A stretch of DNA of 64,000 bases from Clostridiaceae bacterium (GTDB lineage Bacteria; Bacillota; Clostridia; Lachnospirales; Lachnospiraceae), in contig CABJBA010000012.1 of assembly GCA_902363735.1 (NCBI GenBank), forward strand, positions 62,001 to 126,000, read 5' to 3'. Of this stretch, positions 38,457-57,597 are shown piece after piece. A program made the position numbers and the translations under genes. The notes under the pieces were generated by a model. That model saw only the letters and a program-made list of their open reading frames with translations, was not told the origin of the DNA and did no database searches. Numbering within the stretch: position 1 is the stretch's first letter; every line of letters begins with the position of its first letter.

Positions 38457-39289
38457 CTATAATACAGAATACAAACGGCGGATACTCTGTTCCACCGATT
38501 TGGAAGGGTTCATAAAATATCTTCCGTCTGTAATTTCCAGAGACAAATATCCCTGGTATCCTAAATCATCAAACTCCGTTAAATACTGTTCCATGTCCAG
38601 GACTCCATCTCCCCAGGCCAAATGCCCCCGAGGCTCTCCGTCAATAAAATGGACATGAACCAGCTTTTCTCCCAGGGCTTCTAAATACTGGGCAGGACAC
38701 TCTCCTGCAAGGGCCATGGGGATGGTATCAATCATTCCTCCTATGGAGCCGTGATTCAATTCCTTAAGCATGTTCTTCAACGTGGTAAATCATACACCAG
38801 ATTGCTCTCATCATGCCTGAGCACCTCCAGCGCTAATGTCACCCCATAATGCCCGGCAAGTTCTCCTAAACCGTACAGATTCTCTGCCGACCGGTTCCAG
38901 GCATCATCATAATTGCTTCCGTCAAAGTACCCCGTACCTGACGTAACAAGGACCTTATTGCAGCCAAGCTCTCCTGCTGCCCTGATGCTGTCCTCAAAAA
39001 AACCAATGCTTCTCCTTCTTGCCGCCAAAGACGGTGCCGCCAGATTAACAGGATATACGCACTGTTCCGGTGTAAAACAGACCAGCTTCAAGTTCCTGCT
39101 TTCGATTTCCCGGCGTATTGCGGATACTTCCCCATAGGTCATATCCTCCAGGTGAAAATGGGGTTCTGCTCCCCACAACTCAATATTTTTCACACCATTT
39201 GAAACTGCATCATCCAAAAAACGGGTCAGGGGGAAATGTTTATACTGAATATTCATAATTGCAATTTGATTGCGATTAATCCGTTTCAT
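38457..39289 (-). pseudogene. frlC: Fructoselysine 3-epimerase-like gene broken by a one-base deletion
   Basis: Two overlapping frames together make one sugar-phosphate isomerase/epimerase (TIM barrel). The N-terminal part (39289-38777) ends LRHDESNLVYDLPR then a stop; the C-terminal part (38780-38457) starts with LKNMLKELNHGSIGGMIDTIPMALAGE and runs to the normal end of FrlC. At 38781-38786 the minus strand reads TTACCACGTTGAAG; one extra A (TTACCAACGTTGAAG) would restore DLPTLKNM. So a single base is missing, by mutation, assembly error or, less likely, programmed frameshifting. The ATG overlaps the regulator's TGA (ATGA). Intact FrlC interconverts fructoselysine and psicoselysine. Confidence 0.85.
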
Positions 39290-40023: not shown

Positions 40024-40081
40024 ACAAACCTTCCTCCTTAAAATGGTCTCAACACCCATGGAGCATCAGATCATTTTAGAT

Positions 40082-40096
40082 TGATATATTGTATCA
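40082..40096. promoter_or_regulatory. Dyad operator upstream of the UTRA regulator
   Basis: TGATATATTGTATCA: perfect 5-base arms TGATA / TATCA around TATTG. The TATATTGT core recurs near 38300 and 42816. Confidence 0.6.
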
Positions 40097-40123
40097 TACC
40101 ACACAGAAGGTTTTTTCGCCATG

Positions 40124-40147
40124 AAAAACGTCAATTTTTTCACGTTT
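40124..40147 (-). terminator. Weak terminator after the second deglycase gene
   Basis: AAACGT and ACGTTT pair around a 10-base loop with a short T-run on the minus strand. Confidence 0.35.
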
Positions 40148-40153
40148 AAGCCA

Positions 40154-41149
40154 TCAATAATCCAGTCTTTTATAGTACCTTCTGATAGCCAGCGGATGCC
40201 TTCTGCAGTGTTCCAGATGCACATTTATCCGTTGAAAAGCGGAACGCATGACAATGGGGGCAAGAACTCCCCTGAACTCATCGCTGATGCCTTCTAAACA
40301 GAATTTTCTGGTATCAAATACAATGACTTTTGCACTGACCCGGTTGACAAACTTCTCCACCCGGTCCATCTGGGGCCTTGTCATATCTTCCCCCTTAATC
40401 AGTATAACAGGAATATCCCGTTCTATCACCTCAAGGGTTCCGTGGAAGAAGTTAGCCGCTGAAATGGGCCTTGTGCGCATCCATTGCATCTCTTCCATAA
40501 TGCACATGCCGTAGCAGACAGCCCAGTCTTCCAGATTTCCCGATCCCACCAGATAAGTAATTGGTTCATCACAGTATTTCTCCGCATAGGCTTTTGCATC
40601 CTCATCAGCGTCCTGGTACACCCGGACAATGTTATCCGGCATATGTACGATCTCTTTAAAGAACTGGTCATACTTGATGAACTGGCCTGCATTCTTCATA
40701 AACCGCAGTGTTACAGTATACCAGAAATAATATCCTCCGCCTGTGGTACTGATAAGATGGTCGCACAATTCATATAAAGGGGTTCCTTCCTTTTCCACGT
40801 AACCGATCACTCTGGCTCCTGCTGCACGTACCTTTTCCACTGATTCCACCACTTCTTTGGTATCTCCTGAAATGGATTCAATAACCACAACCGACCTGCT
40901 GTCAAAAAAGGGATTGCCCACCAGGTTAAAATCCGCTGCATTTTCAACATAAACGTGTAGCCTGGAGCCCAGCTGCTTGGCAATGTGCATCATCTGGTTT
41001 GCATATAAAACAGTTCCTCCGATGCCGATGTAAAAGATATTGGAGTACCCTTCTTCACATACCCGGTCAATGATCTTTTCTATTTTCGGAATGATATCCA
41101 CCCCATTTTGATGCTCCTGCCTTATCCTCGCCTCGTCAAAATTAAACAT
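40154..41149 (-). CDS. SIS domain protein, fructoselysine-6-phosphate deglycase-like
   Basis: A 331-residue protein with two SIS folds: first about 20-165 (IFYIGIGGTVLYANQMMHIA, SRSVVVIESISGDTKEVVESVEKV), second about 190-320 (YLVGSGNLEDWAVCYGMCIMEE, ANFFHGTLEVIERDIPVILI). It resembles FrlB/GfrE/FraB deglycases that split 6-phosphorylated Amadori products into glucose-6-phosphate and an amine or amino acid. The HGTLEV motif replaces the more common HGPLEI. Being the second such enzyme of the cluster, it may act on a different Amadori compound than its neighbour. Confidence 0.8.
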   Translation of the reverse strand: MFNFDEARIRQEHQNGVDIIPKIEKIIDRVCEEGYSNIFYIGIGGTVLYANQMMHIAKQLGSRLHVYVENAADFNLVGNPFFDSRSVVVIESISGDTKEVVESVEKVRAAGARVIGYVEKEGTPLYELCDHLISTTGGGYYFWYTVTLRFMKNAGQFIKYDQFFKEIVHMPDNIVRVYQDADEDAKAYAEKYCDEPITYLVGSGNLEDWAVCYGMCIMEEMQWMRTRPISAANFFHGTLEVIERDIPVILIKGEDMTRPQMDRVEKFVNRVSAKVIVFDTRKFCLEGISDEFRGVLAPIVMRSAFQRINVHLEHCRRHPLAIRRYYKRLDY

Positions 41150-41214
41150 ATCTTTCCTCCTGTTGATTGTTTTACCTGATTAAACTTCCAGACGTTTTTC
41201 AAAATGTCCCATAA

Positions 41215-41814
41215 TCATATCCGGAGATATGATCTGAACAAAAGCATGGAATATGCTGCTACCTCCAGATCATAGCCTATGGCTGCCATGAAATAAATGA
41301 AGGCATTTATGATAACGCTGATCTTTCCCACGCTGAAATCCGGATATTCCTTGGCACAGTACATCCCCAGTATATCTACCCCTCCGCCGGAACCTCCCGC
41401 CCTCAAGGTGAGCCCCACTCCCAGACCAGATAATCCCCCTCCGATCATGCTGTTTAACAGCTCATCACGGAATAAAGGCTTTTGGGGAGCAGGAATAAAG
41501 GTCAGCAGAATTGACTGAATACATACTGCTGCGATGGTCCTGCAAAAGAACTTTTTCCCAATGCTTTTATATCCAAGCAAAAACAGGGGAAGATTGATGC
41601 ACCAGAAAATAATTCCCGTAAGGTCTATCGCTTCCGGCACACGAACGCCTGCTATTTTGGTAATAAGCAGCTTTAAAAGCTGGGAGATTCCTGTAAATCC
41701 CCCGCTATAGAGGTTGGAAGGAAACAGAAACCACCGGTAGGCCACCGCAAAAAACACCACGCCTAAAATCGACCAGAACATGTTGGAAGTTTCTCTTTGC
41801 AGTGTTTTTCCCAT
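41215..41814 (-). CDS. YitT/DUF161 family membrane protein lacking the C-terminal domain
   Basis: A 199-residue membrane protein with about five hydrophobic segments. NLYSGGFTGISQLL, MIGGGLSGLGVGLTLRAGGSGGGVDILG and DFSVGKISVIINAFIYF are the DUF161 landmarks. YitT proteins usually have about 280 residues, with a last helix and a DUF2179 domain; here the sequence breaks off soon after YDLEVAAYS with an unrelated end (MLLFRSYLRI). A frameshift or truncation is therefore possible. It starts 3 bases after the upstream deglycase stop codon, so it is translated with it. Function unknown; a membrane role in amine or sugar export is speculation. Confidence 0.75.
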   Translation of the reverse strand: MGKTLQRETSNMFWSILGVVFFAVAYRWFLFPSNLYSGGFTGISQLLKLLITKIAGVRVPEAIDLTGIIFWCINLPLFLLGYKSIGKKFFCRTIAAVCIQSILLTFIPAPQKPLFRDELLNSMIGGGLSGLGVGLTLRAGGSGGGVDILGMYCAKEYPDFSVGKISVIINAFIYFMAAIGYDLEVAAYSMLLFRSYLRI

Positions 41815-41817
41815 AAA

Positions 41818-42786
41818 TTAATATTCCAGCTTCCACATATACCTTCTCTTTGTCAATGGGTGACTCCGGGCAATTGATAGCTGTTCCGCATAGACCCGGA
41901 GCACTGCAGTCAGCACTATGGGATTGAAATATTCTGCAACTGAGGACGGAAGCTGGGAGCCAATTCCAAAATCCTTTCCGTCTAAAACCGTTGTCTTTGC
42001 CTGGAAGCGGTTTAAAAAGTCCAGGGCTCTGGAGTCCAGGGCTCTTGTACGCCCTTCATTCATTAATAAAATAAAAGGTACATCTTTTTCCACAATTTCA
42101 AACGGTCCATGGAAAAACTCTCCCGTATGAAAGGAACCAGAGTTGATCCACTGCATTTCCATCAAAAGACAGATAGAAAAGGAATAGGCAACTTCCTGGG
42201 TCGCTCCTGAACTCATAACATAGATTATGGGTGCATCCTTATGATCTTTTGCAAATTCCTGTGCAGGAGGAAGAACAAAGGACACTGCCTTTTCAACAAG
42301 ACCGTATATCTTGCTGAATCCCTCCTGCATCTTATCATAATGGACATACCCTTCATACTGATTCAGGATTTCCACAGCCAGGCTTAATACATTGGTCATC
42401 TTCTCAAGCTTTGCAGCATAGTTCTTCTCAAAGCCATGGACAATCACATAATGAGCATGTTTTGCCAAAGGAGAACCTTCTGCATGGGTGATTGCGATTA
42501 CCCTTGCCCCCAGTTCCATGGCTTTTTTTGAAGCTGCAATGGTTTCAGGCGTATTTCCTCCCAGAGAACAGGTAATGACGATTGCCGTCTCGTCTACTGC
42601 TGCAGGAGTCGCATACAAAAACTCATTTGCAGTATAATGGCCAGTCCTGATCTCCTTTGCATTTGCCTCAAGAAAATATTTTCCCGGGTAAAGCTCTGCC
42701 TTTGATGCACCGCAGCCTACAAAATACACTGACTTTACAACCGGCATTATTTCCTTAATTGATTCAATAATCTGTTTTGGTTCCAT
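41818..42786 (-). CDS. frlB: SIS domain protein, fructoselysine-6-phosphate deglycase-like
   Basis: A 322-residue protein with two SIS folds (VYFVGCGASKAELYPGKYFLE, TAIVITCSLGGNTPETIAASKKA; IIYVMSSGATQEVAYSFSICLLMEMQW, SGSFHTGEFFHGPFEIVEKDVPFILL). EFFHGPFEIVE and the C-terminal HPLTKRRYMWKLEY match the FrlB pattern. It should cleave 6-phospho-fructoselysine (or a relative) to glucose-6-phosphate and lysine. It is first in its operon, with a promoter whose -10 box carries the TATATTGT motif. Which of the two deglycases uses which substrate is open. Confidence 0.82.
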   Translation of the reverse strand: MEPKQIIESIKEIMPVVKSVYFVGCGASKAELYPGKYFLEANAKEIRTGHYTANEFLYATPAAVDETAIVITCSLGGNTPETIAASKKAMELGARVIAITHAEGSPLAKHAHYVIVHGFEKNYAAKLEKMTNVLSLAVEILNQYEGYVHYDKMQEGFSKIYGLVEKAVSFVLPPAQEFAKDHKDAPIIYVMSSGATQEVAYSFSICLLMEMQWINSGSFHTGEFFHGPFEIVEKDVPFILLMNEGRTRALDSRALDFLNRFQAKTTVLDGKDFGIGSQLPSSVAEYFNPIVLTAVLRVYAEQLSIARSHPLTKRRYMWKLEY

Positions 42787-45181: not shown

Positions 45182-45802
45182 CTAATCCAAGTCATAAAAA
45201 TCTTCGTTCAGGGTTCCATCATCATCAAAATAGTAGTAATCATCTCCTATGATAACGTCTCCGGTAACCATATGACCGCTATGATCAAAATAATACCAGC
45301 CATCACCAATCTGCCGCCAGCCCGTTACCATACGGCCGTCCGAATCAAAATAATACCAGTCTTCAGCCACCAGCTTCCAGCCTGTTGCCATGTAGCCATC
45401 CTGGGTGAAATAATACCAGTTTCCATCTGCTGATAAAAAGCTGCCCTTTACGAAAGATCCGTCTTCATTTCCATATTTCCAGCCAATGGCCTCCTGCTGC
45501 CAGCCAGCAGTAACCTGTCTTGTCTCATTCTGAACCGGCTGACTGGCTGTTTCAGCAGGTTTTGATGCAGTGCTTCCAGAATTGCCAGACTTATAAGGAC
45601 AAACCCCATTGGGGTGAAGGTGGGCCGGATATCCGCCGCAGTGATAATGATAGCTTCCCAACCCACTTTTATTTTTATTGTCCCGATGGCCCCCGCTTGC
45701 ATCAGTCCTGCCTGAATGAGCCTCTGATATGATAGGAAGCCCTCCAAACGTAATCAGACCGCATATTCCATAAACAGCCAGCTTTTTACATAATTTTCTC
45801 AT
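45182..45802 (-). CDS. Secreted YHYH protein with cell-wall-binding repeats
   Basis: A 206-residue exported protein: signal peptide about 1-28 (cut after SEA), a His/Gly-rich YHYH module (SGGHRDNKNKSGLGSYHYH, HLHPNGVC, 36-68), a Ser/Thr/Ala linker, and four to five choline-binding-type repeats (GNWYYFTQDGYMATGW, DWYYFDSDGRMVTGW, GWYYFDHSGHMVTG, about 100-195). The repeats attach it to teichoic acid or other wall polymers. The YHYH module is of unknown function; its histidines suggest metal binding. Confidence 0.82.
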   Translation of the reverse strand: MRKLCKKLAVYGICGLITFGGLPIISEAHSGRTDASGGHRDNKNKSGLGSYHYHCGGYPAHLHPNGVCPYKSGNSGSTASKPAETASQPVQNETRQVTAGWQQEAIGWKYGNEDGSFVKGSFLSADGNWYYFTQDGYMATGWKLVAEDWYYFDSDGRMVTGWRQIGDGWYYFDHSGHMVTGDVIIGDDYYYFDDDGTLNEDFYDLD

Positions 45803-45978: not shown

Positions 45979-46902
45979 CTATTGCTGCGACATTGCTGCT
46001 TTAAGAGCTGTATCCAGGGCACTCATTGCCGGTATACCGGCCACAGCACCTGGCATCTCCTCTTTTGTTTTCTCTTCCACCAGCCTCCGTATTAAATCAT
46101 TTTTAACCAGAACACTGCCCCAAAGCCACATATCCAGTCCGTCTGCCGGGGAATTTTTCTTCATTTTAAATGCAGTGTCCCGAATAAGGCCCCATAAAGC
46201 TTCACTGCATTCCCGGTGAATACGGATGGCTTCCATATCTCCCTGAACCGCTGCCTCATATGCAAGGGGGGACAATCTTGCAATCTCAGACTTCTCCATA
46301 AGATTTGCATTAATAAAATCATCTATTTTTTCAAGGGTGTCAAGGCCTGTTCTCTCTAAAATAAGTGGTGTGAGAATGGGACATGTAATTCTCCCGGACA
46401 GCTCATCTCCGACTGCCTTTAGGATTTTTAATCCCATGGCAAATCCGCTTCCCTCATCGCTGATAATATGATTCCAGCCGCCGGTCCGGTGTATGGTTCC
46501 GTCTTTATCTCTGCCAAAACATACCGAGCCGGTTCCTGATATAACTACCAGCGCCGGTTCCTTTGTCATGTGCAGAAATACTTCACAGTCATTTAACACC
46601 AAAAGCTTTTCGGGGGGAAATCCCATTTCTTCAAAGCTGGATCTGCAATTGTATTCATCCGAAGGGGAATCGATCCCGCTGGCTGCTACACAAATCCCAT
46701 GGCAGCAGCCCGGTTCCAGATTTAACTGGCTCAGGGCCGGAAGTACCAATGCCCGGTACCGAAGCCGGCTTTTCTCAGCTCCATCCGTATTAAGACTGCA
46801 TCCTTGTGCCGTAAATTCTCCAAGTACAGTCCCTTGAGCATCGCAGATTTTTAGCCTCCCATTAGTTCCGCCTATATCCAATCCTGCAAAATATCCTTTC
46901 AT
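45979..46902 (-). CDS. BadF/BadG-type N-acetylglucosamine kinase-like protein
   Basis: A 307-residue ASKHA-fold kinase: phosphate-1 motif GLDIGGTNGRL (7-17), adenosine/phosphate-2 motif LVVISGTGSVCFG (about 117-129) and GGWNHIISDEGSGFAMGLK (141-159), as in human/bacterial N-acetylglucosamine kinase. It should phosphorylate an amino sugar or related hexose in the cytoplasm. It is the last gene of the second sugar locus, pointing to a sugar released by the enzyme(s) encoded upstream. Confidence 0.85.
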   Translation of the reverse strand: MKGYFAGLDIGGTNGRLKICDAQGTVLGEFTAQGCSLNTDGAEKSRLRYRALVLPALSQLNLEPGCCHGICVAASGIDSPSDEYNCRSSFEEMGFPPEKLLVLNDCEVFLHMTKEPALVVISGTGSVCFGRDKDGTIHRTGGWNHIISDEGSGFAMGLKILKAVGDELSGRITCPILTPLILERTGLDTLEKIDDFINANLMEKSEIARLSPLAYEAAVQGDMEAIRIHRECSEALWGLIRDTAFKMKKNSPADGLDMWLWGSVLVKNDLIRRLVEEKTKEEMPGAVAGIPAMSALDTALKAAMSQQ

Positions 46903-46925
46903 TTACCCTTCTCCTTATTGTTCTA

Positions 46926-47987
46926 TTACCACGGCAGGAAACCTGCCGTGGTAAACATCTCCTTACCTTCCAGAAGATGTTTTTTTAGTGAGATCTGCAG
47001 TGAAGTGCTGCATGAATAACTTTCCAGTCTTTCCATGGAACAATCAAACCCCATAACCCGTTCCAGAATCTGCGGGCATTCCGCCATAATAGGCATCTTA
47101 TAAAAACGTTCCATAAAGTTTATGATCCGGCTTCTCTCCGGTAAAATAAACTTCAGATTGGGGTCCAGAAGCCAGCTGTCGCAGACAAGAAGGCTTCCAG
47201 GGTAATATTTCTTTGCCTCCTCCAAGGAGGAATCTATTTTATCCGGAGAAAGATCCGCTCCTTGGGGAATATGGACTGCCACCGCCTTTTCTCCCGGGGC
47301 CAGACACAGTTCCCAATCAGACAGATGAAGAATCAAGGTCTTATCTATGTTAACCGCACCACGCTTAAAATCGGCCGAAAATCCCGTTACGGTTTCATTC
47401 AGGCAATTTACATAAGTTTTATATTCCCTTGTGAACACTCTTCCATTGGTTCCTGAAAAATATCCATCCTGATCCACCTTAAAGCCAGGACATGCCAATG
47501 CCCTGTATTCACTGGTATATCTGTTTTTAAAAATCAGGAAGGAGAAATCATAAGTCACCTCCTCAAACTGCAGGCTGCCGAACCGGCGCACTTTTCCGGC
47601 AACAGACCGAAAGACCCACTCAATGCGGTCAAGGCCCACCCGACCCTCATGATATTTTTGATAAACCTTGATCCAGATTTCAATATCTTTCATGGATTCA
47701 AGAAATATACGTTCCGGAATTCCCTGATTCAGGATATCCTCAATAGCCGCCGGCATCATCCAGTCTATATAAACCACCGGGAGTATACCTGCATCTAAAT
47801 TCAGCATGTTAGCATGCCGTATCCCCAGTCTTATGGCTTCTGCTGCCTTTTCCGGATTCTTTTTTATCAGCAAAAGCTCCTTGCACCATTTGTAATTGCT
47901 CATAAAAAAAGGATATCTGCGGAAAATGGCGGATGCAGAAGCAACCGCCTTTTGAGTATCTTCACTAAATATATTGTGTCTTATCAT
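46926..47987 (-). CDS. Acyltransferase-like protein (NAT_N / GNAT-like C-terminal)
   Basis: A 353-residue soluble protein. The middle and C-terminal parts (RRFGSLQFEEVTYDF about 135-149, AVAVHIPQGADLSPDKIDSSLEEAKKYYP about 235-262, LVCDSWLLDP) match the pattern I recall for acyltransferase-domain proteins of the NAT_N/GNAT_C pair. It overlaps the end of the 812-residue protein gene by 23 bases, so the two are coupled. The reaction is unknown; in this locus it might acylate a sugar. Confidence 0.65.
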   Translation of the reverse strand: MIRHNIFSEDTQKAVASASAIFRRYPFFMSNYKWCKELLLIKKNPEKAAEAIRLGIRHANMLNLDAGILPVVYIDWMMPAAIEDILNQGIPERIFLESMKDIEIWIKVYQKYHEGRVGLDRIEWVFRSVAGKVRRFGSLQFEEVTYDFSFLIFKNRYTSEYRALACPGFKVDQDGYFSGTNGRVFTREYKTYVNCLNETVTGFSADFKRGAVNIDKTLILHLSDWELCLAPGEKAVAVHIPQGADLSPDKIDSSLEEAKKYYPGSLLVCDSWLLDPNLKFILPERSRIINFMERFYKMPIMAECPQILERVMGFDCSMERLESYSCSTSLQISLKKHLLEGKEMFTTAGFLPW

Positions 47988-50403
47988 GATTTTTCATAAA
48001 CCTCACTATTAATCCGCCAGCTGTCAGGGTACGTTTCTCTTTATTAAATTCCGGCTGGAGGCTTTCTGCAAAAGCGGCGAACTCATCCAGAGATTGAAAA
48101 ACTTGGCTGCTGCCGCATACACAGAAATATGCAATATCATCTCCATAAGTCCTGTATTCACAGCCGAACAGCTGATCATCTGTGGGTTCCATGACACCGC
48201 TGCACCACAAAGCGGCATACCCCTTCTTCTGCCTGCCTATAAGCCAATGTTCCCCAATACTTGTTTCCATGAATTTAGGAGCAGGAAAATAAGCATGGGT
48301 AAAATGAATGGGATGTTCCTCAGGAATGTGATAAACGGCTCCCAAAAGATTTTCTTTTTGAACCAGAGCAGGCATCACACCGTTTCCATACCAGAACCCC
48401 GGCCGCATGGAACTGGAGTCACAGGTTCCTCCCGGATGGTTGGTGAATAAGGCTGTCTCTTTATCTAGTGCAGCATACCACATATGCTGCTGATAACCGT
48501 ATACTCCCGGTTCAAAGCAGGTAGTACCGTGGAATCTTTCATTCAGAGATTTGGTATATTCACAGGTTGAAGGGTCTGCCTCCGGGTCCAGGGTCAGATT
48601 CTTCCAACGGTTAAATCCCTGATCCAGCCTTGGGGACTGAACAGAGGTCAGACAATATTCCGAAGTCTTGTTCAGATGAATCAGAGCATTTCCCGTAGAA
48701 TAACATTCATCTGCCGGTTTTTCCATAAGCTGTGCCAATCCGGCAGGCAGCCTGTATCTGCTGCTGGCGAAAAAGCCCAGCCAGCCTTCCCCAAAGGAGT
48801 AGGGAACTTTTGGATTGATAAGATTCATCAGCGCCTGTGCTCCCTGTTCAAAGGGATGAACCACTTCCCGGTAAACACGGCCCATAGGAGCGATAACAAC
48901 TCCGTCATAGGCGTGGCGGCATAGCATTTCTAAAAGGCGGTCTGTAATTTTTTCAGCCCTCTGAGAAATCTTTGGATCAGAATAATCAATGACATTTAAA
49001 AGTGCAGCAAAGGTGACGCACATATATACGGTACTTAGGAATTCTTCAAATCCGTGTTTTTCCACATCCTCCAGCCAGCATTCTACCTTGGCTTTTCCTG
49101 CATGAAAAAGCTCCTTTCCAGTCATATCTGCACGGGGAAAATATTCATCCGGATACATTTTCCCTGCATTCATGGCACACGTATAAAACATCAGGGAATG
49201 ATTTTCGCTCCAGAAACACATTGCATCGGAGCCTTTCTGATCCATCCAGTACCTCCAGTCAAGAAGCACATTCTTAGCCCGTTCAGCCATCTCTTTATCC
49301 ACGGGATAATTTTTCAAATACCGGATCAAGCCGCAAACAAGGAAATCAGAGCAGTCATACCTGCTTTCAATCTGGTCAAGAGTCTCATAAAGTAACTCCT
49401 TATCCTTTCCATTTTCCATTCCAAGAGCTTTCCTCGCAAGAATATTGGAAATAGAAAAGCCAAACTTATCTCCTCTTGATAAGCTTTCTGCCGCTCCGAT
49501 CCTGCGAAAAATGGTATTCCTGTTTTCCTCAAAACCTGTTTCTTTTGAGTACACAGGCTTCTGGGCCTTGATATTTTCGACCATTCTGGTAAGAACGGCA
49601 TGTTCCTTCCTGACGGTTACTAAAATTACCCCAGTTTTTTCTTCGTCCAGGACCACTTGATCCCTGCCGGTGATCTCCTGCCACTCTTTCCTGCTCTCCA
49701 CCTGAGCAAAGTCAGGGCTCTGGCTGTCATAGGCAAGCCAGGTTCCACCGGGAGCCTCTCCCATATAGGACATGACAGAATCCATTATACAAAGGGAATC
49801 AAGCCAGGTTTCAGCCCGAACCAACTCATCAGTCTTTTCTTCATCCGGCAGAATGACAGCAATTTCTGACTCATGGTCCTTGATCTGAATCCCGAATAAG
49901 GTTCTGGTATCCCGGACTCCCAGGGTCTGAAGGCTGATGTAGATTTGATTGATCCCCTTTTTTAAACGGAGCTCCATAGTCTTTTTCTCAATGGGCTTAT
50001 AAACCGGCGAATCCATATGACACACCAGTTCCCCATTGCACCAGACAGCCACTGCTGCATAAGACCATACAACAGCCTTTACCGTCAGATCCCTTTCAAC
50101 CAGGATTCCCGTAACGGCATCAAGTTCCACCTTCTGAAGTGTGGAGTAAAAGGTGCTTTCATCCACAAACCAGTTACCATAGTGATAATAGTATCTCCAC
50201 GGCATGCCAAGGCGGCTGTTTTCTCCCAATACCGCTGCCTCTTCTGGAGGGGACATTGGTCTGCCTGCAACCAGGGATCTTAGATATTTCTCGTAGCGCA
50301 GCTGATTATCATCCGTTTCATGATTAATAAAATCCGTTTCTTTTGGGCCTGACACCAGATAATTAGTAAGAAACCCGGACCTGTTTAAATATTGTTTTTC
50401 CAT
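47965..50403 (-). CDS. Large protein of unknown family in a sugar operon
   Basis: An 812-residue protein with no signal peptide or membrane segment. Residues about 60-190 look like a beta-sandwich (MPWRYYYHYGNWFVDESTF, VVWSYAAVAVWCNGELVCHMDSPVYKP, GINQIYISLQTLGV). The rest is helical with many aromatic residues (DWRYWMDQKGSDAMCFWSENHSLMFYTCAMNAG, YKPH-like segments), as in alpha/alpha-toroid glycan enzymes, ending in a beta-rich part (GFWYGNGVMPALVQ...). A cytoplasmic glycosidase, lyase or phosphorylase is plausible from context, but no family is recognised. It lies between ABC importer and acyltransferase genes. Confidence 0.7.
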   Translation of the reverse strand: MEKQYLNRSGFLTNYLVSGPKETDFINHETDDNQLRYEKYLRSLVAGRPMSPPEEAAVLGENSRLGMPWRYYYHYGNWFVDESTFYSTLQKVELDAVTGILVERDLTVKAVVWSYAAVAVWCNGELVCHMDSPVYKPIEKKTMELRLKKGINQIYISLQTLGVRDTRTLFGIQIKDHESEIAVILPDEEKTDELVRAETWLDSLCIMDSVMSYMGEAPGGTWLAYDSQSPDFAQVESRKEWQEITGRDQVVLDEEKTGVILVTVRKEHAVLTRMVENIKAQKPVYSKETGFEENRNTIFRRIGAAESLSRGDKFGFSISNILARKALGMENGKDKELLYETLDQIESRYDCSDFLVCGLIRYLKNYPVDKEMAERAKNVLLDWRYWMDQKGSDAMCFWSENHSLMFYTCAMNAGKMYPDEYFPRADMTGKELFHAGKAKVECWLEDVEKHGFEEFLSTVYMCVTFAALLNVIDYSDPKISQRAEKITDRLLEMLCRHAYDGVVIAPMGRVYREVVHPFEQGAQALMNLINPKVPYSFGEGWLGFFASSRYRLPAGLAQLMEKPADECYSTGNALIHLNKTSEYCLTSVQSPRLDQGFNRWKNLTLDPEADPSTCEYTKSLNERFHGTTCFEPGVYGYQQHMWYAALDKETALFTNHPGGTCDSSSMRPGFWYGNGVMPALVQKENLLGAVYHIPEEHPIHFTHAYFPAPKFMETSIGEHWLIGRQKKGYAALWCSGVMEPTDDQLFGCEYRTYGDDIAYFCVCGSSQVFQSLDEFAAFAESLQPEFNKEKRTLTAGGLIVRFMKNHDKTQYI

Positions 50404-50407
50404 CTTT

Positions 50408-51274
50408 TTATCCCTTCACCGCACCCGCAGTCAGCCCGCTCATGAAGTAGCGGCTGGTGCACATATAAAGCACTATAATCGGTATGATTGATATAGTAGA
50501 GCCTGCAAACATCAGGTTCCATGCTGCTGTTCCGTCACCACTGTTCTTTAACATGACAACGCCCACGGTCAGGGGACGGAGTTTGTCGTTTGACATGGTG
50601 AATACCAGGGGCATGATATATTCATTCCACCCTGTACGGAAGGAAAGCAGTCCGATGGTTGCCATAACCGGTTTCAAAAGCGGCATTATTATTTTATAAT
50701 AAATTTGAAAAAAAGTACAGCCATCCAGTTTCGCCGCTTCATCAAGCTCCTTGGAAATGGTATTCATAAATCCTCTCACAAGGAAAATATAAGTTGCCTG
50801 CCCCATACCCGTGGAAATAAGGATTATGCTTAGAAGAGAAGTGTTCATTTTCACCTTCACGGCAAGCTCAAACAAAGGTCTTAAGCTTACACTTCCTACA
50901 TTAACAAACATAAAAGCTACAAAGATACTGTACAACAGTTCTTTTCCCTTAAACTTTTTTCTTGCAAACACATAACCAGCCATAGTGGTTGTCAAAATAG
51001 TTAATATCATGACCCCAAGGCTTATAATAAGGCTGTTCACAGTATAGATTGCAAAATTAGCCTTTTCCCATGCCTGCTTATAATTTTCAAAGATAAATGT
51101 CTGGGGCAGAATACTGGTTCCTCCCAAAAGCAGTTCATTATTTGCCTTAAACGATCCCATAACAATGTAAATGACCGGATAGAGGGTAATTAACGAAACA
51201 ATTAAAAGAAGCAGGAACAGAAGGCCTCGCATTGCTTTTGTTTTTTTTGAATATACGGTATGTGTCTTCTCCAT
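50408..51274 (-). CDS. Carbohydrate ABC transporter permease (MalG type)
   Basis: A 288-residue permease with six hydrophobic segments and the EAA loop KELDEAAKLDGCTFFQIYYKIIMPLLKP (about 175-202). It ends with YFMSGLTAGAVKG. The ATG at 51274 follows AAGGAGG. With its MalF-type partner it forms the channel of the second sugar importer; again no ATPase gene is present locally. Confidence 0.9.
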   Translation of the reverse strand: MEKTHTVYSKKTKAMRGLLFLLLLIVSLITLYPVIYIVMGSFKANNELLLGGTSILPQTFIFENYKQAWEKANFAIYTVNSLIISLGVMILTILTTTMAGYVFARKKFKGKELLYSIFVAFMFVNVGSVSLRPLFELAVKVKMNTSLLSIILISTGMGQATYIFLVRGFMNTISKELDEAAKLDGCTFFQIYYKIIMPLLKPVMATIGLLSFRTGWNEYIMPLVFTMSNDKLRPLTVGVVMLKNSGDGTAAWNLMFAGSTISIIPIIVLYMCTSRYFMSGLTAGAVKG

Positions 51275-51284
51275 ATCTGCCTCC

Positions 51285-52205
51285 TTAAACCACATCATCC
51301 AGTTTTCTTGCAAGGTACATGTAAATAGCCGTAATCACACCGATAATAAGCGCCGCCATAATACTGAGTACGGTTGCATAGCCGATCTGAGGTGTTGTCT
51401 GTGAACCGAATATTAGCTTATATATATAGGTGAACATTACCTCTGACCTGCTGTTTGGACCTCCATTGGTAAGCACCAAAATGGATTCATAGTCCTTTAA
51501 TGCCGTAGTAATTGCCAGCATCAAAATCACTTTTAAAACAGGACTGAGCATGGGCAGAGTGATGTAGAAAAAGGACTGTACCCCATTTGCCCCGTCCATT
51601 TTACAGCTTTCATACACTTCCTCAGAAATGCTGGAAAGGCCGGACATGAACAAAATCATATAATTACCAAAACCGCCCCATACCGCTACGATAATAATAG
51701 AAAGCATAACAATGGAGGCACTTCCCAACCAGTCGATGGGAGAATGGATCATTCCAAGCTTTTGGAGATAAGCATTTAATACCCCGTTATAAACAGCAAA
51801 GATAAAACCGAATATCAGGCTGTAAACCGCAGAGCTAATGACTGTGGGCATAAAATAAATCCCCCGGAAAATTCCGCTTCCCTTAATCTTCTGATTAAGC
51901 AAAACAGCCAGAAGCAGGGATAATGGTATGATAATTACCAGCTTCAGCACAGCATATTCAAAGGTATGAAGGACACTGCGCCAGAACACGGCATCCTGAA
52001 ACATTCTGGTAAAGTTTTTAAATCCTATATAATAAGCGGTAAATCCGTTGTAATCATAAAAAATATATCTGAAAAGCCAGCAGAAAGGATAGATGGATAT
52101 CACTACCAGCAAAAACACTGCCGGAAGCAGCATCAAAGCGGAAGTAAAATCCCCCCTGCTGCCTGCTCGTTTCATTCGTTCCGCAACGCTTAATTTTTCT
52201 TTCAT
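51285..52205 (-). CDS. Carbohydrate ABC transporter permease (LplB/UgpA type)
   Basis: A 306-residue permease with six hydrophobic segments and the EAA loop EEVYESCKMDGANGVQSFFYITLPMLSP (about 210-237; Ala replaced by Ser/Cys). The ATG at 52205 is preferred over the GTG at 52217. It lies between the binding-lipoprotein and MalG-type genes, with 10 bases to the latter. Confidence 0.88.
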   Translation of the reverse strand: MKEKLSVAERMKRAGSRGDFTSALMLLPAVFLLVVISIYPFCWLFRYIFYDYNGFTAYYIGFKNFTRMFQDAVFWRSVLHTFEYAVLKLVIIIPLSLLLAVLLNQKIKGSGIFRGIYFMPTVISSAVYSLIFGFIFAVYNGVLNAYLQKLGMIHSPIDWLGSASIVMLSIIIVAVWGGFGNYMILFMSGLSSISEEVYESCKMDGANGVQSFFYITLPMLSPVLKVILMLAITTALKDYESILVLTNGGPNSRSEVMFTYIYKLIFGSQTTPQIGYATVLSIMAALIIGVITAIYMYLARKLDDVV

Positions 52206-52231
52206 AAGCCGTATCACCTTTCTCTAAAACA

Positions 52232-52264
52232 GGAGCTGCTTTTAGTTTTTCTAAAAACAGCCCC
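52232..52264 (-). repeat. Intercistronic hairpin after the second binding-protein gene
   Basis: GGAGCTGCTTTTAG and CTAAAAACAGCCCC pair around five T with mismatches. Same position as the hairpin at 35904-35930 in the other importer. Confidence 0.65.
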
Positions 52265-52278
52265 TTTGCTTTCTTCAC

Positions 52279-53718
52279 TTATTTGTCCAAGTACTCAATG
52301 GTTCCTGCATTTGGATGCATCGGGTCAAAGTCCTTAATAACAAGTCTTTTAATCTTGCCCATGCTAACATCATTATCAAGAGCTTCGTTGTACCTCTTGT
52401 TTAAATCTGCAATGGCATCGTCAGCGCTCACATTGCCTAACATGGCATTCCAAAGCGTTGCCACATAGTCATCGCCCTGGATGGCAACAGCCGGTACTGC
52501 CGGATATACACTTTCGTAATCCTGTAATTTAAAATCTGCTAATCTGCCGGTCTTAGAAGAATCAATGACTCCGCTCATATGGCTGGAGATTGGAAGGCAA
52601 TATCCTCCCTCTAAGTAGCCCTTTAAGAAATCTTCGCTGGAAAAGAACTTAATGACTTCCCATGCAGCATCCTTGTTCTTAGAAGAAGAAAGCATCATAT
52701 ACCCCTTCTGAGGCTGAATAGTCAAAGCACCCTTTACTTCTCCGTCAAGAGTCGGCACCGTAGATACTCCCCAGTCAAACTTGGTCACCGGGAACTGGTC
52801 TGTAAACACACCTGCTTCCTGAGATGCATTGCCCCAAAGAGCAAAGGCTCCTTCTGCAAACTGTGCTCTCATTGCATCTACCCCCTGGGATACGGATCCA
52901 GGAAGGACGCTGTTATCTTTAAATAACTGGTTAGTCTTTTCAATCACTGGTTTATAACCATCAAAATTAAATTCACCTTTTTTATAATCATAACGGTAAA
53001 TGCCGCTTGTCTCACTGGTGCCTTCTATCCATCTGATGAAAGGAACACTTGAGGTAAAAGCAATGCCGTAGTTCTTTCCTCCTCCGTTGTCTGTTACTTT
53101 CTTAGCCAGTTCGATAACACCATCCAAGGTATCAGGAAACTCTGTGATGCCTGCTGCTTCCACCAAATCCTTGTTGTACTCCATTCTTACACCGCTTCTC
53201 ATACCGGTAGGGATCCAGTATACATTGCCGTTGATCATGTTAATCCCTTCGTATTGAAGCTTACTTGCCTCGGTCACCTTTTCATATTCCGAGTCTGCAA
53301 TTTTATCGTTAATAGGCTCCAGGATTGCAGCATCTGCAAACGTTTTTAAATCGAAGCCGCTCTGACCTGCACTGATACCTGCAATATCAGGTGCCGTGCC
53401 GGAGGAATATGCCATGGAAAGCATATTGGCATAATCGTCTGTTACCACAGTCATCTCAATCTTAATGCCTTTGTCATTGGACTCATTAAACTCACTGATC
53501 TTCTGATCCACATATTCAGAGTCATGCCGGTCATTGGTCCAGACCTTAATCACGGTTTCACCTGCTGAAGCAGCTTTTGTGCCCTCCTTGGATTCTCCTG
53601 CTGCTCCTGTCTGATTCTGGGCTCCGGTTGTTTCAGCTGCTCCCCCGCCGGAACACCCGGTCAGTGCTGCCGCTGCCAGGACTCCTGCTATCATGAAACT
53701 TAAAGCTCTTTTTTTCAT
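52279..53718 (-). CDS. Sugar ABC transporter substrate-binding lipoprotein
   Basis: A 479-residue extracellular solute-binding protein (family 1). Signal peptide 1-21 with lipobox LTGC at about 19-22. Ala/Gly/Thr linker then the binding domain (VIKVWTNDRHDSEYVDQKISEFNESN, GMRSGVRMEYNKDLVEAAG, QFAEGAFALWGNASQEAG). The ATG at 53718 follows AAAGGAG. First gene after the YesMN pair, last residues YLDK; sugar unknown, likely an oligosaccharide containing an amino sugar given the kinase. Confidence 0.9.
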   Translation of the reverse strand: MKKRALSFMIAGVLAAAALTGCSGGGAAETTGAQNQTGAAGESKEGTKAASAGETVIKVWTNDRHDSEYVDQKISEFNESNDKGIKIEMTVVTDDYANMLSMAYSSGTAPDIAGISAGQSGFDLKTFADAAILEPINDKIADSEYEKVTEASKLQYEGINMINGNVYWIPTGMRSGVRMEYNKDLVEAAGITEFPDTLDGVIELAKKVTDNGGGKNYGIAFTSSVPFIRWIEGTSETSGIYRYDYKKGEFNFDGYKPVIEKTNQLFKDNSVLPGSVSQGVDAMRAQFAEGAFALWGNASQEAGVFTDQFPVTKFDWGVSTVPTLDGEVKGALTIQPQKGYMMLSSSKNKDAAWEVIKFFSSEDFLKGYLEGGYCLPISSHMSGVIDSSKTGRLADFKLQDYESVYPAVPAVAIQGDDYVATLWNAMLGNVSADDAIADLNKRYNEALDNDVSMGKIKRLVIKDFDPMHPNAGTIEYLDK

Positions 53719-53861
53719 AATCTGCTCCTTTCTCATTGTTTCATAATGTATTACTTTGATGATATTATTCTAATGTTTTTCATTTAAATATGACATGGCA
53801 TTTTTCATGATTCATGTAACATTTTTTAATATTATACCTTTTCTGGCAGTAAAACATAAAA

Positions 53862-53915: not shown

Positions 53916-55721
53916 TTATTTTTCAGGAATGCGGATCACCACACTGTTTTGAAAGTATGGAATGGTCTGAAAATTCATCTCCGCCTCTCCGTAATATATT
54001 TTTAATCTGGTGAAAACATTATGAAGCCCAATGTGCTGACCGCCTGCCGGATCTTTATGATAAAGAGAATCATAGGCCTTATCAATATCAATGCCGCAGC
54101 CATTATCAATGACTTCTATATAAATCCAGCCTTCTTTCCGGTAAAACCGTACATCAATAGAAGGAATACACACCGCCTCCCCCCACCTTTCATCCTGAAA
54201 GCCATGCTTAATGGAGTTTTCTGCCAGGGGCTGCAAAATTAATTTGAGAATACGGTACTCCATAAGATCTCCCTCTACATAAGACTGAAAGGAAATGGAC
54301 TTATTTGTCCTGTGATTCATGATATTGATGTAAGCCTTCACATGAGCAATTTCATTCCTGATCATGATAAGCTCATCTCCATAATTCAGTCCGATACGCA
54401 TAAAGGTGCCCAGATTATTGATCATGGAAGAAGCTACCAGAGTGTGGTTGTTCAGTACTTCCAGGTTAATACCTTCCAGTGTATTATAGAGCAGATGCGG
54501 ATTGATCTGTTCTGCCAGAACCTGAATTTCCAGCTGATATTTCTCATGCTCATCTTCTTTGATCTGGCTGATCTGTGACTGAATGGTGCTGTACATGGAA
54601 TTAACTGCTGCATTCAGCTGACCGATTTCATCTTTATATTTTGTTTTATATGGCTCATCATAATGATTTTCCTGAATCTGCCGGATGCTCTCCATAAGCC
54701 GCTCCAGAGGCGAAGTGATGAATTTGGATAAAACAGCGGAAAATGCAACGGAAAATATCAGCCCCGCCCCGCCCATCAGAACAATGAACTGATTCATGGC
54801 AGCAATCTTTCTGTTTAATGATTCTTTTGATAAAACACTGATCAGCTGAAGGTCCGAAAAGGGAAGCATCTGGGAATAAACCGCATTGTCTGTCAAATCT
54901 GCAATCTGGCGGATCTGAGTATCCTTATGGTTGCCCCTTACTCCTTTTATAAAGCCCTTGTTTTCAAGTACCATACTCATGGAAAGGGGATTTTTAAGGC
55001 TGATGTTATTCCCCATGGAATTTACCACAAAATAAGAGCGCTCAAAGTAATTGGCATTGGATAAGGACAGCCTGCTTTGGAACTTCTGTAAATTTAACAG
55101 AACCACCAGCCTGGTAGCCACTTCTTCCCCCTTTGCGGTAATCACCACGTTATCACCGGGAATCAAGGTTGATAAGGGAATTACAATGGGAATCACGTCC
55201 TGCTGCTGTAAAAAAGGGCTCTGGCAGGCAGGAAGCCAGGTGATTTCATCAATGGTTCCGTAATCAGAAAGAAAATCAGAAAGATTTTTTTCCGGCCTTA
55301 CCCCGTAAGCATATACCGTATGACAGGTTCCATCCCGGTTGACCATAAAAACCGATTCAATCATACTGTTGCTGCTCAAAAGGTTGATGAGCTGTACCTG
55401 GACCCCTTCCGGATTTAAATAGCTGTTTTCTTCCCGACCGCTTATAACCACTCTTTGTATGGCCGGGGTGGATGCAAAGCTGTTCACATTTGTAATAAGG
55501 GTGTCGTACAAATTATTTAAGGATTCAGAAATAACATTCATGGTATCCTGCATCTGCATTTCCACTTCTTGATAATAAAGTTTGTTAAAATATCCCCGTG
55601 TAAAAATGCATATAAAAATAGTAAGCATGATATCAATGCTGAACATGCAAATCCTGATTTTGGATGCGATCTTTTTGTCTCCAATAAATTTAAAAACCGT
55701 TTCTTTTAACCGTTTTATCAT
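53916..55721 (-). CDS. YesM-type sensor histidine kinase
   Basis: A 601-residue membrane sensor: TM1 about 22-41, extracellular sensing domain about 42-310 (dCache-like), TM2 about 311-332, HAMP (LSKFITSPLERLMESIRQIQ, 331-380), a His_kinase domain with the phosphorylated histidine H409 (QINPHLLYNTLEG), then HATPase_c with DNGCGID near the end. YesM kinases sense a carbohydrate outside and activate a YesN partner. It lies 15 bases after the response regulator gene and before the ABC importer genes it probably controls. Confidence 0.92.
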   Translation of the reverse strand: MIKRLKETVFKFIGDKKIASKIRICMFSIDIMLTIFICIFTRGYFNKLYYQEVEMQMQDTMNVISESLNNLYDTLITNVNSFASTPAIQRVVISGREENSYLNPEGVQVQLINLLSSNSMIESVFMVNRDGTCHTVYAYGVRPEKNLSDFLSDYGTIDEITWLPACQSPFLQQQDVIPIVIPLSTLIPGDNVVITAKGEEVATRLVVLLNLQKFQSRLSLSNANYFERSYFVVNSMGNNISLKNPLSMSMVLENKGFIKGVRGNHKDTQIRQIADLTDNAVYSQMLPFSDLQLISVLSKESLNRKIAAMNQFIVLMGGAGLIFSVAFSAVLSKFITSPLERLMESIRQIQENHYDEPYKTKYKDEIGQLNAAVNSMYSTIQSQISQIKEDEHEKYQLEIQVLAEQINPHLLYNTLEGINLEVLNNHTLVASSMINNLGTFMRIGLNYGDELIMIRNEIAHVKAYINIMNHRTNKSISFQSYVEGDLMEYRILKLILQPLAENSIKHGFQDERWGEAVCIPSIDVRFYRKEGWIYIEVIDNGCGIDIDKAYDSLYHKDPAGGQHIGLHNVFTRLKIYYGEAEMNFQTIPYFQNSVVIRIPEK

Positions 55722-55736
55722 AACTGCCTTTCCAAA

Positions 55737-57326
55737 TCACGGTGCTTTTTCGTTGTTTCTGTTATAATCGGAAGGAGCCACACCTGTATTCTGTTTAAAT
55801 ACCCGGTAAAAAGAACGATAATCGTCGTAGCCGATTGCAGCGGCTACTTCTGCCACTGGCTTATGCGGCATCCGCTCCATCAGGCCCTTGGCATGATCTA
55901 TTTTGATCCGGATTACATAATCCCTGAAATTGACTCCCGTCTTTAGTTTAAAGTAGCTGGTAAAATAGACATCACTTAAATTGACGTGCCTTGCCACATC
56001 CTTGGCCAAAATCTTTTCTCCCATATGGGTTTTTATATAATATTCTGCAGCCTGAATGATCTGCTTTCCGGAACTGCCCCCTCCTGATTGCTGCTTTCCG
56101 GCACAATCAATAAGAAAATCCTCCATATAGGATTTTAACTCTTCAAAGGATCGTATGGTATTAACCGGAAAAATAACCTCCGCCTGAGATAATTCTTTTT
56201 GGCTGCCCAGTGCCTTCTGAATATCCGTGATCATATAAATACACATCCCCCGGATATAGTTGGGCGACGGCATTGGCACATAGAGAAGCTGAGAAAAATA
56301 TTCCCGGCATAATTCCCGTATTTTCTCAGTCTGGTTGGCAGTGATGGAATATATCAGATTATTATAATCCATCTGATTGGCAGCTGCCGGGGGCGGGGTG
56401 GTACACAGGATTCTCTCATCAAAAATCTTCTGCTCTGTCTCATAAAAGCTGTAGGACAGGCACATAAGGGCGGTCTTATAGGAGTTGGAGCAGTCCGTAA
56501 GCACGGTTCCTTCCTTACCGATTCCCACAGTTACATCCATGGTTGAATCTCTGTTCACCTGTTTTAAACACCTGGTCGCCAGAAAGCGGTAATTCACCGG
56601 CACTGATTTCGGCTGCATAGTATGGATAATAGTCAAAAGCTCGCAGGAGCTTGACACCAAAAATTCATATCTGGTTTCCTGGAGTTCTTGGCTCACAATA
56701 TCCATCAGATAATTTATCTGTTGAAATTCCTCCTCCTGTTCCCTGTCATCTTTCCCCTCAATGGAAAAAACCATGACACGGAAGGGACTGTCATTTAATT
56801 TAAGTTCCAGCCGGCCGATTTCATCACGGATCTCTTCGTAAGAATAAAACTCGTTCTTCAGCAGCTTTTTTAAAAACTTCTCTTTGGGCTCTGCTTTAAC
56901 ATTTAAATAGGAAGAATAAGAATGAATATGGTTGGATTGGAGAATCTTCTCTTTTTGCTGTCTGATTTCCGTTACCAGTTCATCAATTTTAATGGGCTTT
57001 AAAAAATAATTCTTCGCTCCAAGCTGAATGGCCTTCTGTGCATATTTAAAATCTCCATAACCGCTTAAAATAATGAAATTGGTCTGCATCCTGTCATGTC
57101 TGACACGTTCCATAAGCTCCAGTCCGTCCATGCCGGGCATACGGATATCAGTAATAACAATGTCCGGATTGCAGGACTTAATAATATCATACGCCTCCCT
57201 GCCGTCTTCTGCGGTGCCCACGATGGTTATGCCAAACTGTTCCCAGGGCACGACTGTAGAAAGCCCGTTGCGGATGGTTGCTTCATCGTCTGCTATCAAT
57301 AATGTTATATTCTTATCTGCATCCAT
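55737..57326 (-). CDS. YesN-type response regulator (REC plus AraC HTH)
   Basis: A 529-residue regulator: REC domain 6-125 (acidic pair D13/D14, phosphorylated D60 in DIVITDIRMPGMDG, K110), a long central region, and a C-terminal AraC/XylS double helix-turn-helix (ILAKDVARHVNLSDVYFTSYFKLKTGVNFRDYVIRIK, AEVAAAIGYDDYRSFYRVFKQNTGVAPSDYN). The ATG at 57326 follows GGGGAGG; the extra N-terminal codons of the longer frame have no site. It heads the operon with the YesM-type kinase and should activate the adjacent sugar importer genes. Confidence 0.92.
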   Translation of the reverse strand: MDADKNITLLIADDEATIRNGLSTVVPWEQFGITIVGTAEDGREAYDIIKSCNPDIVITDIRMPGMDGLELMERVRHDRMQTNFIILSGYGDFKYAQKAIQLGAKNYFLKPIKIDELVTEIRQQKEKILQSNHIHSYSSYLNVKAEPKEKFLKKLLKNEFYSYEEIRDEIGRLELKLNDSPFRVMVFSIEGKDDREQEEEFQQINYLMDIVSQELQETRYEFLVSSSCELLTIIHTMQPKSVPVNYRFLATRCLKQVNRDSTMDVTVGIGKEGTVLTDCSNSYKTALMCLSYSFYETEQKIFDERILCTTPPPAAANQMDYNNLIYSITANQTEKIRELCREYFSQLLYVPMPSPNYIRGMCIYMITDIQKALGSQKELSQAEVIFPVNTIRSFEELKSYMEDFLIDCAGKQQSGGGSSGKQIIQAAEYYIKTHMGEKILAKDVARHVNLSDVYFTSYFKLKTGVNFRDYVIRIKIDHAKGLMERMPHKPVAEVAAAIGYDDYRSFYRVFKQNTGVAPSDYNRNNEKAP

Positions 57327-57597
57327 TATCCCCTGTCCTCCCCAGTACATCCAAATAAATTTCCGTTTTCTCAAACCACAGATCCGCAGGCATAAGCACA
57401 TGCAATGTGCATAAGTACTTCGCAGAAGCTTGCGGTCTTATTCCTTACCATGAAGATCCCGACCGGAGATTTCTTCTGCTCATTCCTCCGGGAAAACGAT
57501 TGTTTTTGCTGTTATAATAATCATTTTATCACAGTAAATTTAAATATTCTACCGTTTTGCAGGCAACGCGGCATCTTAAGCCTTTTAACAGTAATTT

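Follow-up and report, generated by a model that had tools for sequence, protein, structure and literature searches.

A predicted cytoplasmic protein of 812 amino acids (ENZ), encoded in the 64,000-nucleotide stretch analysed here (the window; positions 62,001 to 126,000 of contig CABJBA010000012.1), most likely represents, on its structural model, an undescribed family of polysaccharide lyases (PL) and not a glycoside hydrolase (GH). Its gene is followed on the minus strand by genes for an acyltransferase-like protein of 353 amino acids (NAT) and a kinase-like protein of 307 amino acids (KIN). The reading preferred here, to which a probability of about 0.5 was assigned, is that ENZ is a new lyase that would cut imported uronate oligosaccharides in the cytoplasm, and that its partners would N-acylate and phosphorylate an amino sugar. 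The fold and the presumed chemistry are already known; new, within the libraries searched, are the sequence family and the composition of the operon.

Fold of ENZ

A structural model of ENZ was obtained with AlphaFold (AF2) at a predicted local distance difference test score (pLDDT) of 91.6 and a predicted template modelling score (pTM) of 0.91. The following regions were distinguished:

49867..50382, minus strand: ENZ residues 8-179, N-terminal beta-sandwich like the sugar-binding domain of GH2
48724..49548, minus strand: ENZ residues 286-560, helical toroid domain (helices of the model; lyase structures align across it)
47968..48723, minus strand: ENZ residues 561-812, C-terminal antiparallel beta domain (strands of the model; aligns with the lyase beta-sandwich)

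When the catalytic part alone was searched with Foldseek, all 9 chains retrieved at E ≤ 0.001 were polysaccharide lyases, and the model contains both domains of the lyase fold, the helical toroid and the antiparallel beta-sandwich. The assignment of ENZ to this fold is well supported by the model; a protein of this fold would be expected to act on a uronic acid by beta-elimination rather than by hydrolysis, and ENZ was considered probably a lyase. A glycoside hydrolase composed of a helical barrel and a GH2-type accessory domain would account for the resemblance of the N-terminal domain to a GH2 sugar-binding domain and for the many GH2 and some GH78 enzymes in the Foldseek list of the whole model; the GH2 alignments, however, are based largely on residues 8-179, lyases alone are retrieved with the catalytic part at E ≤ 0.001, and no GH model of Pfam matches ENZ, so that a hydrolase was regarded as highly improbable. 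Among the families of the CAZy classification, PL8, PL12, PL15, PL17, PL21, PL35 and PL39 resemble ENZ in their two-domain fold across the whole catalytic part, and toroid/beta-sandwich families share with it an Asn...Tyr pair at similar spacing. Unlike these lyases, ENZ has an extra GH2-like N-terminal domain, no sequence match to solved members, a catalytic His that may lie at a different position, and no export signal that could be seen.

Predicted active site

In an alignment of 49 ENZ relatives (A1), 88 columns are invariant. For comparison with distant paralogues, 11 of the 14 paralogue loci fetched were aligned (20–24% identity over the alignment), and 51 ENZ positions were found to be kept in at least 47 of the 49 relatives and 10 of the 11 paralogues, among them Ser399-Glu400-Asn401-His402, Ser457, Tyr460, Arg509, Tyr511, His640, His656 and His703. 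The candidate catalytic positions are:

49198..49209, minus strand: Ser399-Glu400-Asn401-His402, predicted carboxylate-neutralising Asn motif (49/49 relatives, 11/11 paralogues)
49024..49026, minus strand: Tyr460, predicted general base/acid (49/49 relatives, 11/11 paralogues)
48529-48531, minus strand: His625, candidate catalytic His (49/49 relatives, 0/11 paralogues, which have Ser, Ala or a gap)
48484..48486, minus strand: His640, candidate catalytic His of the beta domain (49/49 relatives, 10/11 paralogues)
48436-48438, minus strand: His656, candidate catalytic His (49/49 relatives, 10/11 paralogues)

Because of their conservation and lyase-like spacing, we infer that Asn401 and Tyr460 are catalytic residues. 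The distance between them, 59 residues, lies inside the range of 53–63 that follows from the published numbering of lyase families in which an Asn is catalytic. Excerpts of PMC12088678 give Asn192/Tyr246/His401 for PL35, Asn240/Tyr294/His424 for PL12, Asn201/Tyr258/His413 for PL17, Asn183/Tyr242 for a PL8 enzyme and Asn236/Tyr299 for PL23, and an excerpt of PMC11848413 gives Asn238/Tyr291/His444 for PL33; in the table excerpted from PMC12088678, 3 of 12 enzymes replace the Asn by Arg, Asp or Glu. Where a His follows the Tyr in the known families, it does so after 130–166 residues. From Tyr460 of ENZ the distance is 165 to His625, 180 to His640 and 196 to His656, which places the two His residues kept in the paralogues outside the known range; all three are candidates for the catalytic His.

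Sequence searches and extent of the family

ENZ alone gave no match in Pfam, NCBIfam or the sequences of solved structures (PDB), and the best hit of the 49-sequence profile against solved chains had an E of 0.44 and was to an unrelated protein. At most two proteins of the 49-member alignment scored below 0.01 with a Pfam model, each with a different weak family, and no significant similarity to PL8, PL12, PL15, PL17, PL21, PL35 or PL39 was found against solved chains, Pfam and NCBIfam; a profile–profile comparison with a four-sequence heparinase II/III-like alignment gave no result. That the family is new by sequence, as far as Pfam, NCBIfam and solved chains go, is well supported. A preliminary description of the locus had called ENZ a protein of no recognised family and had proposed structure prediction with a fold search; by sequence its statement holds, no match to a characterised glycoside hydrolase family was found, and the proposed search is the one that yielded the polysaccharide-lyase fold.

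A scan of genome contigs retrieved 61 ENZ loci (40–86% identity) in Lacrimispora, other Clostridia, Paenibacillus, Butyrivibrio and Spirochaetes, and a protein search in which 7994 candidates were scored gave at least 564 ENZ relatives at E ≤ 1e-20. Among the 120 relatives listed, the only readable name was 'hypothetical protein' and the single Pfam domain was DUF3604, in a protein of 1327 amino acids (P0111). Of 299 genomes sampled from the bacterial family, 16 carried ENZ or the distant paralogue at E ≤ 0.001. On viral contigs, 11 pattern matches were obtained, none of which was an ENZ relative; a near-mode search of plasmids gave no ENZ match, and no paper on the ENZ family was found in the open-licence library searched, mostly without an organism name. 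Alignment A1 omits 13 of the 61 loci, namely near duplicates (L003, L004, L006, L007, L008), genes that were cut (L013, L059), a locus without open reading frame (L057), long proteins (L016, L038, L043) and fused or long ones (L019, L048). If the lyase reading is true, a chemistry, a set of predicted catalytic residues and an easy spectrophotometric assay would become available for a family of at least 564 proteins, and the use of uronate glycans would be revealed in bacteria whose lyases escape Pfam and NCBIfam (Lachnospiraceae, Paenibacillus, Spirochaetes).

ENZ proteins of 1327 amino acids are encoded at two spirochaete loci (L019:10007-13990, L048:10007-13990), and a separate DUF3604 gene adjoins ENZ at two loci from Clostridia (L012:12487-13974, L207:11180-12670); DUF3604 and ENZ may share a substrate. 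In genome G135, ENZ is broken into two reading frames of 441 and 419 amino acids beside a short GH28-like gene (L148:7037-9534).

Genomic partners of ENZ relatives and paralogues

Partners were counted within six genes at the 60 scan loci with an open reading frame. Contig ends near ENZ make these counts lower bounds, and partners were named by Pfam on one or two members per cluster and by clustering for the others. Importer membrane proteins stand near ENZ in at least 43 of the 60 loci, histidine kinases in at least 36 and response regulators in at least 39; GH28 was found in at least 19, a KdgF-like cupin in at least 11, GH2 in at least 11, GH38 in at least 10 and a heparinase II/III-like protein in at least 4, NAT and KIN in 10 each. 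In the wider family (Paenibacillus, Spirochaetes, other Clostridia), GH28, a KdgF-like cupin, GH38 or GH2 take the place of NAT and KIN. A quick tree was computed without a mixture model and with long branches flagged; to the 49 rows of A1 it added 5 more ENZ and, from the 14 paralogue loci, 8, which makes 62 rows in all, and partners were counted within four genes. The cupin accompanies 10 and GH28 15 of the 54 ENZ rows, over which GH28 and cupin change state 6 times each, NAT and KIN once each. A KdgF-like partner was found in several early-branching ENZ relatives.

The cupins of L047 and L031 matched solved KdgF at 6.5e-26 to 5.9e-17; an unnamed 'Cupin' chain (7zyb) and 2pfw scored higher, and NCBIfam gave only weak matches to other cupins. 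KdgF opens 4,5-unsaturated monouronates, as stated in the excerpt of PMC11381880 used here. The alginate locus of Bacteroides eggerthii described there (PL17 with KdgF) has its lyase near KdgF, as do at least 11 of the 60 ENZ loci; in contrast to that description, the genus of the window has its KdgF-like cupin elsewhere, an ABC (ATP-binding cassette) importer instead of SusCD, and NAT and KIN. For the one GH28 neighbour tested, the nearest NCBIfam models were rhamnogalacturonidase and polygalacturonase, both below cut-off.

The distant paralogues (L072-L075, L134-L143) are mostly about 820–880 amino acids long, have their own importer in most loci and gave no Pfam match in the two checked; they are predicted to be a second lyase family. 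A GH88/GH105-like gene accompanies the paralogue in 11 of the 14 loci (L072-L075, L134-L138, L140, L142) and is lacking in L139, L141 and L143; all 8 paralogue rows on the tree have it. The one such gene checked matched Pfam Glyco_hydro_88 at 1.6e-78, its nearest solved chains include two annotated as GH105 and YteR, and its NCBIfam near miss was the beta-galactosidase BglB. KdgF-like cupin and GH105-like partners fit an unsaturated product. A uronyl C5-epimerase or a sugar-binding protein could also have a lyase fold; the importer, KdgF-like and GH105-like partners, together with the lack of a visible export signal, point instead to an unsaturated product inside the cell, and either alternative to a lyase was considered improbable.

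Layout of the locus

The genes of the locus, all on the minus strand and given here in order of transcription, are:

55737..57401, minus strand: YesN-like response regulator with AraC-type DNA-binding domain (Pfam Response_reg, HTH_18)
53916..55721, minus strand: YesM-like sensor histidine kinase (Pfam His_kinase, HAMP, HATPase_c)
52279..53736, minus strand: sugar-binding lipoprotein of the importer (Pfam SBP_bac_1, 3e-27)
51285..52217, minus strand: ABC importer membrane protein (Pfam BPD_transp_1, 1.7e-16)
50408..51313, minus strand: ABC importer membrane protein (Pfam BPD_transp_1, 4.8e-12)
47965..50403, minus strand: ENZ, 812 amino acids, predicted cytoplasmic enzyme of polysaccharide-lyase fold (AF2 model, fold matches)
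46926..47987, minus strand: NAT, 353 amino acids, predicted amino-sugar N-acyltransferase (Pfam NAT_N and GNAT_C)
45979..46902, minus strand: KIN, 307 amino acids, sugar kinase of the BadF type (Pfam BcrAD_BadFG)

Pfam assigns every gene except ENZ, in agreement with the gene calls of the preliminary description (NAT_N and GNAT_C, BadF-type ATPase, importer parts); the YesMN pair that it placed before the importer exists, at 53916-57401, outside the range given for it. The gaps from the YesN-like gene through KIN are 15, 179, 61, -29, 4, -23 and 23 bases, and given these short gaps and overlaps a single transcript is plausible. The overlap of ENZ and NAT had been put at 23 bases and is exactly that (47965-47987). 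The binding protein probably starts at 53718, where an ATG lies inside its reading frame at the position equivalent to the start of the orthologue in L204; the range in the preliminary description ends at this same coordinate. No hydrophobic segment was seen at the N-termini of ENZ, NAT and KIN in a crude hydropathy scan, and to that extent the cytoplasmic location claimed for ENZ stands.

The three-gene unit in the genus

The genus was searched in 25 genomes reached through Lacrimispora celerecrescens; 15 of them contain a full-length ENZ (76–88% identity), and by coordinates NAT (58–84%) and KIN (68–87%) adjoin it in all 15. KIN is split over two frames in G326, the KIN match of G001 runs across one TAG codon, and in G318 pieces of ENZ, and of NAT with KIN, lie on two contigs. 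ENZ and most of NAT are lost in G320, which keeps KIN; G321 likewise has KIN, but neither NAT nor a close ENZ. Genus genomes with only a distant ENZ (44–46%) have no NAT or KIN beside it, nor do these adjoin the 60% identical copy of G323. In the first scan, the 23-base overlap is identical in all 10 other loci with NAT and KIN, and in the other 49 neither gene occurs within six genes; L013 is a close ENZ copy cut by a contig end. The three genes, whose co-occurrence had been proposed as a check, therefore travel together wherever a close full-length ENZ was found, within one genus; a three-gene system independent of the genus was set aside, as NAT and KIN each change state once on the ENZ tree. 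The linkage may reach further through the loci of P0003-P0027, which lie outside the count, are 62–80% identical to ENZ and include at least one from a Clostridium whose name does not assign it to the genus.

The regulators and importer are less constant. The importer adjoins the operon in the window and in L001 and is absent beside it in L002-L009 and L014, and among the 10 other first-scan loci with NAT and KIN, 9 have neither YesMN nor importer beside the operon, so that the two do not belong to the unit in every genome. An orthologous binding protein (92–95% identity) was found in 6 of 17 genomes searched, all 6 of them among the 15 with full-length ENZ and always close upstream of ENZ by coordinates, and a KdgF-like cupin in all 17 related genomes searched (best match 50–55% identity), encoded away from the operon.

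In L001 and some relatives, the YesN-like gene is immediately preceded by a gene with an RVT_1 domain (4.1e-22 in L001; L001:2086-3105). Reverse-transcriptase-domain genes also lie beside the decayed operon in G320 and G321 (L202:8832-9830, L203:8830-9859), the one of G321 being itself in two frames.

NAT and KIN

NAT matches Pfam GNAT_C (9.4e-31, 107.1 bits, cut-off 22.8) and NAT_N (1.5e-08, 36.1 bits, cut-off 27.8) and is predicted from these matches to be an amino-sugar N-acyltransferase. Against the solved structures of Dbv8 and Tcp24, the latter presumably the teicoplanin enzyme, it scored 9e-05 to 1e-03. In 30 NAT sequences, His239 and Trp124 occur in all and Cys269 in 29; in the alignment with Tcp24, His239 falls on the His of H-x-P, whereas Cys269 is unmatched by a Cys in the Tcp24 and Dbv8 alignments. 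Tei11 and Dbv8 N-acylate glucosamine in glycopeptide antibiotics, according to the excerpt of PMC8987122. NAT shares with them the NAT_N/GNAT_C architecture and the aligned H-x-P His; they serve antibiotic biosynthesis, whereas a catabolic role is proposed for NAT, and the match reaches only 9e-05. The closest NAT outside the genus in the sample (33% identity) adjoins a GH123 gene (Pfam), and a GH123-related gene cluster lies within four genes of NAT in 3 of 19 sampled loci, the 20th (L166) having no NAT reading frame in the clustering. If the preferred reading is true, NAT_N/GNAT_C acyltransferases, whose characterised relatives met here act in antibiotic biosynthesis, would gain a catabolic role, and the genes with Pfam GNAT_C, found in 57 of the 299 genomes sampled from the bacterial family, would be easier to interpret.

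NAT_N/GNAT_C genes lie within four genes of GH123-like genes in L158, L160, L161 and L195 (by Pfam in L195), which may be a clue to what the acyltransferase family does in general.

KIN belongs to Pfam BcrAD_BadFG (5.8e-17, 62.5 bits, cut-off 31.5), and its nearest solved chain is 8zo3, a kinase for N-acetylmuramic acid (MurNAc) and N-acetylglucosamine (GlcNAc), at 1e-33. Family and nearest chain place it with the BadF-type kinases MurK and NagK; unlike NagK, it stays below the cut-off of the NCBIfam equivalog NagK_SO3507 (50.9 vs 370). KIN relatives in L197 (47%) and L198 (44%) adjoin a SIS-domain protein (Pfam); in L197 the best models for this protein are GlmS and NagB-II, below cut-off, and a GH9 gene stands shortly before the KIN relative, while L198 and L200 resemble L197 by eye. 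In Clostridium acetobutylicum, GlmA-MurK pairs a glucosamine N-acetyltransferase with a GlcNAc/MurNAc kinase in peptidoglycan salvage, with no lyase. MurK is cited in the excerpt of PMC10465942.

Relatives and neighbours of NAT and KIN point indirectly to an amino sugar. The preliminary description had read the locus as import, an unknown glycan enzyme, acyl transfer and phosphorylation for an acylated or amino-sugar glycan. The anatomy was right; the enzyme has a lyase fold, for which beta-elimination and not hydrolysis is expected, the amino sugar is favoured by the kinase and acyltransferase relatives, and the acylated glycan found no support.

Proposed pathway and substrate

In the preferred reading, oligosaccharides would be imported and then cut in the cytoplasm by ENZ through beta-elimination at a uronic acid, with Tyr460 taking the C5 proton of the +1 uronate and Asn401 neutralising the carboxylate. 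The resulting 4,5-unsaturated uronate would be opened by the KdgF-like cupin encoded elsewhere and would enter 2-keto-3-deoxygluconate metabolism. NAT would N-acetylate the glucosamine-type sugar that is set free, and KIN would phosphorylate it for entry into the GlcNAc-6-phosphate route. The whole sequence from lyase through NAT to KIN is tentative, at somewhat less than even odds. The GH28 and KdgF-like partners suggest pectic oligosaccharides as substrate for much of the ENZ family; NAT and KIN suggest a uronate-amino-sugar unit in the clade of the window.

A pectic substrate is a serious rival in the window as well. As a lyase, ENZ would then cut pectic oligosaccharides or similar ones from plant uronates, with NAT and KIN as captured cell-wall sugar salvage genes acting on something else; the counts of GH28 (at least 19 of 60 loci) and cupin (at least 11 of 60), the single change of state of NAT and of KIN on the tree, the retention of KIN without NAT in G320 and G321, and the MurNAc/GlcNAc kinase as nearest solved relative of KIN are in its favour. 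However, the order of the three genes is kept in 15 of 15 close genomes despite divergence of NAT to 58%, the 23-base overlap is kept in 10 of 10 other first-scan loci, both genomes with KIN and without a close ENZ have a NAT remnant or none, and one sister-clade copy lies near a block of sulfatase, GH88 and heparinase-like genes. On balance this rival was judged rather unlikely.

That block is found in G323, near its 60% identical ENZ copy and on the opposite strand (L207:11180-18980, L208), and comprises DUF3604, a sulfatase like N-sulphoglucosamine sulphohydrolase (SGSH_C, 1.4e-16), GH88 and two heparinase II/III-like proteins. As a substrate clue it is only a hint, since it forms a separate operon and was seen in a single genome; the sister clade also includes L010 and L012, in which no sulfatase/heparinase-like block was recognised by eye. 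Membership of the window's operon in a heparin locus was set aside, as it contains no sulfatase or GH88.

By eye, the G323 block continues with further sulfatase-like proteins and an importer, and looks like a cluster for sulfated glycosaminoglycans.

In lysosomes, heparan glucosamine is acetylated at its free amino group before the sugar is removed. By analogy, the preferred reading can be narrowed, with a low probability, to a lyase that would open N-unsubstituted uronate-glucosamine oligosaccharides in the cell (de-N-sulfated or naturally free-amine), NAT restoring the N-acetyl group so that KIN could take the sugar; this would be a bacterial counterpart of the lysosomal logic of acetylating before degrading. 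If true, a new PL family with hundreds of members would be joined by a new catabolic use of the NAT_N/GNAT_C fold. The heparin and chondroitin/hyaluronan loci of Bacteroides thetaiotaomicron (excerpts of PMC6994673) likewise have lyase products that include an amino sugar needing phosphorylation, and the heparin locus has its own GlcNAc kinase, of ROK type and dispensable; these excerpts contain no N-acyltransferase, and the window's operon, unlike the loci as described there, has no sulfatase or GH88.

Neighbouring genes in the window

Downstream of KIN, at 45182-45802, a secreted-looking protein of 206 amino acids is encoded, in which a YHYH-type segment and choline-binding-like repeats were recognised by eye. 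Further away, 39286-42786 encodes two SIS-domain proteins, separated by a YitT-like membrane protein, and a GntR regulator. These SIS/GntR genes were rejected as part of the pathway, since two unrelated genes intervene and they are absent after KIN in L001; they are possibly a separate locus for amino sugars or Amadori products.

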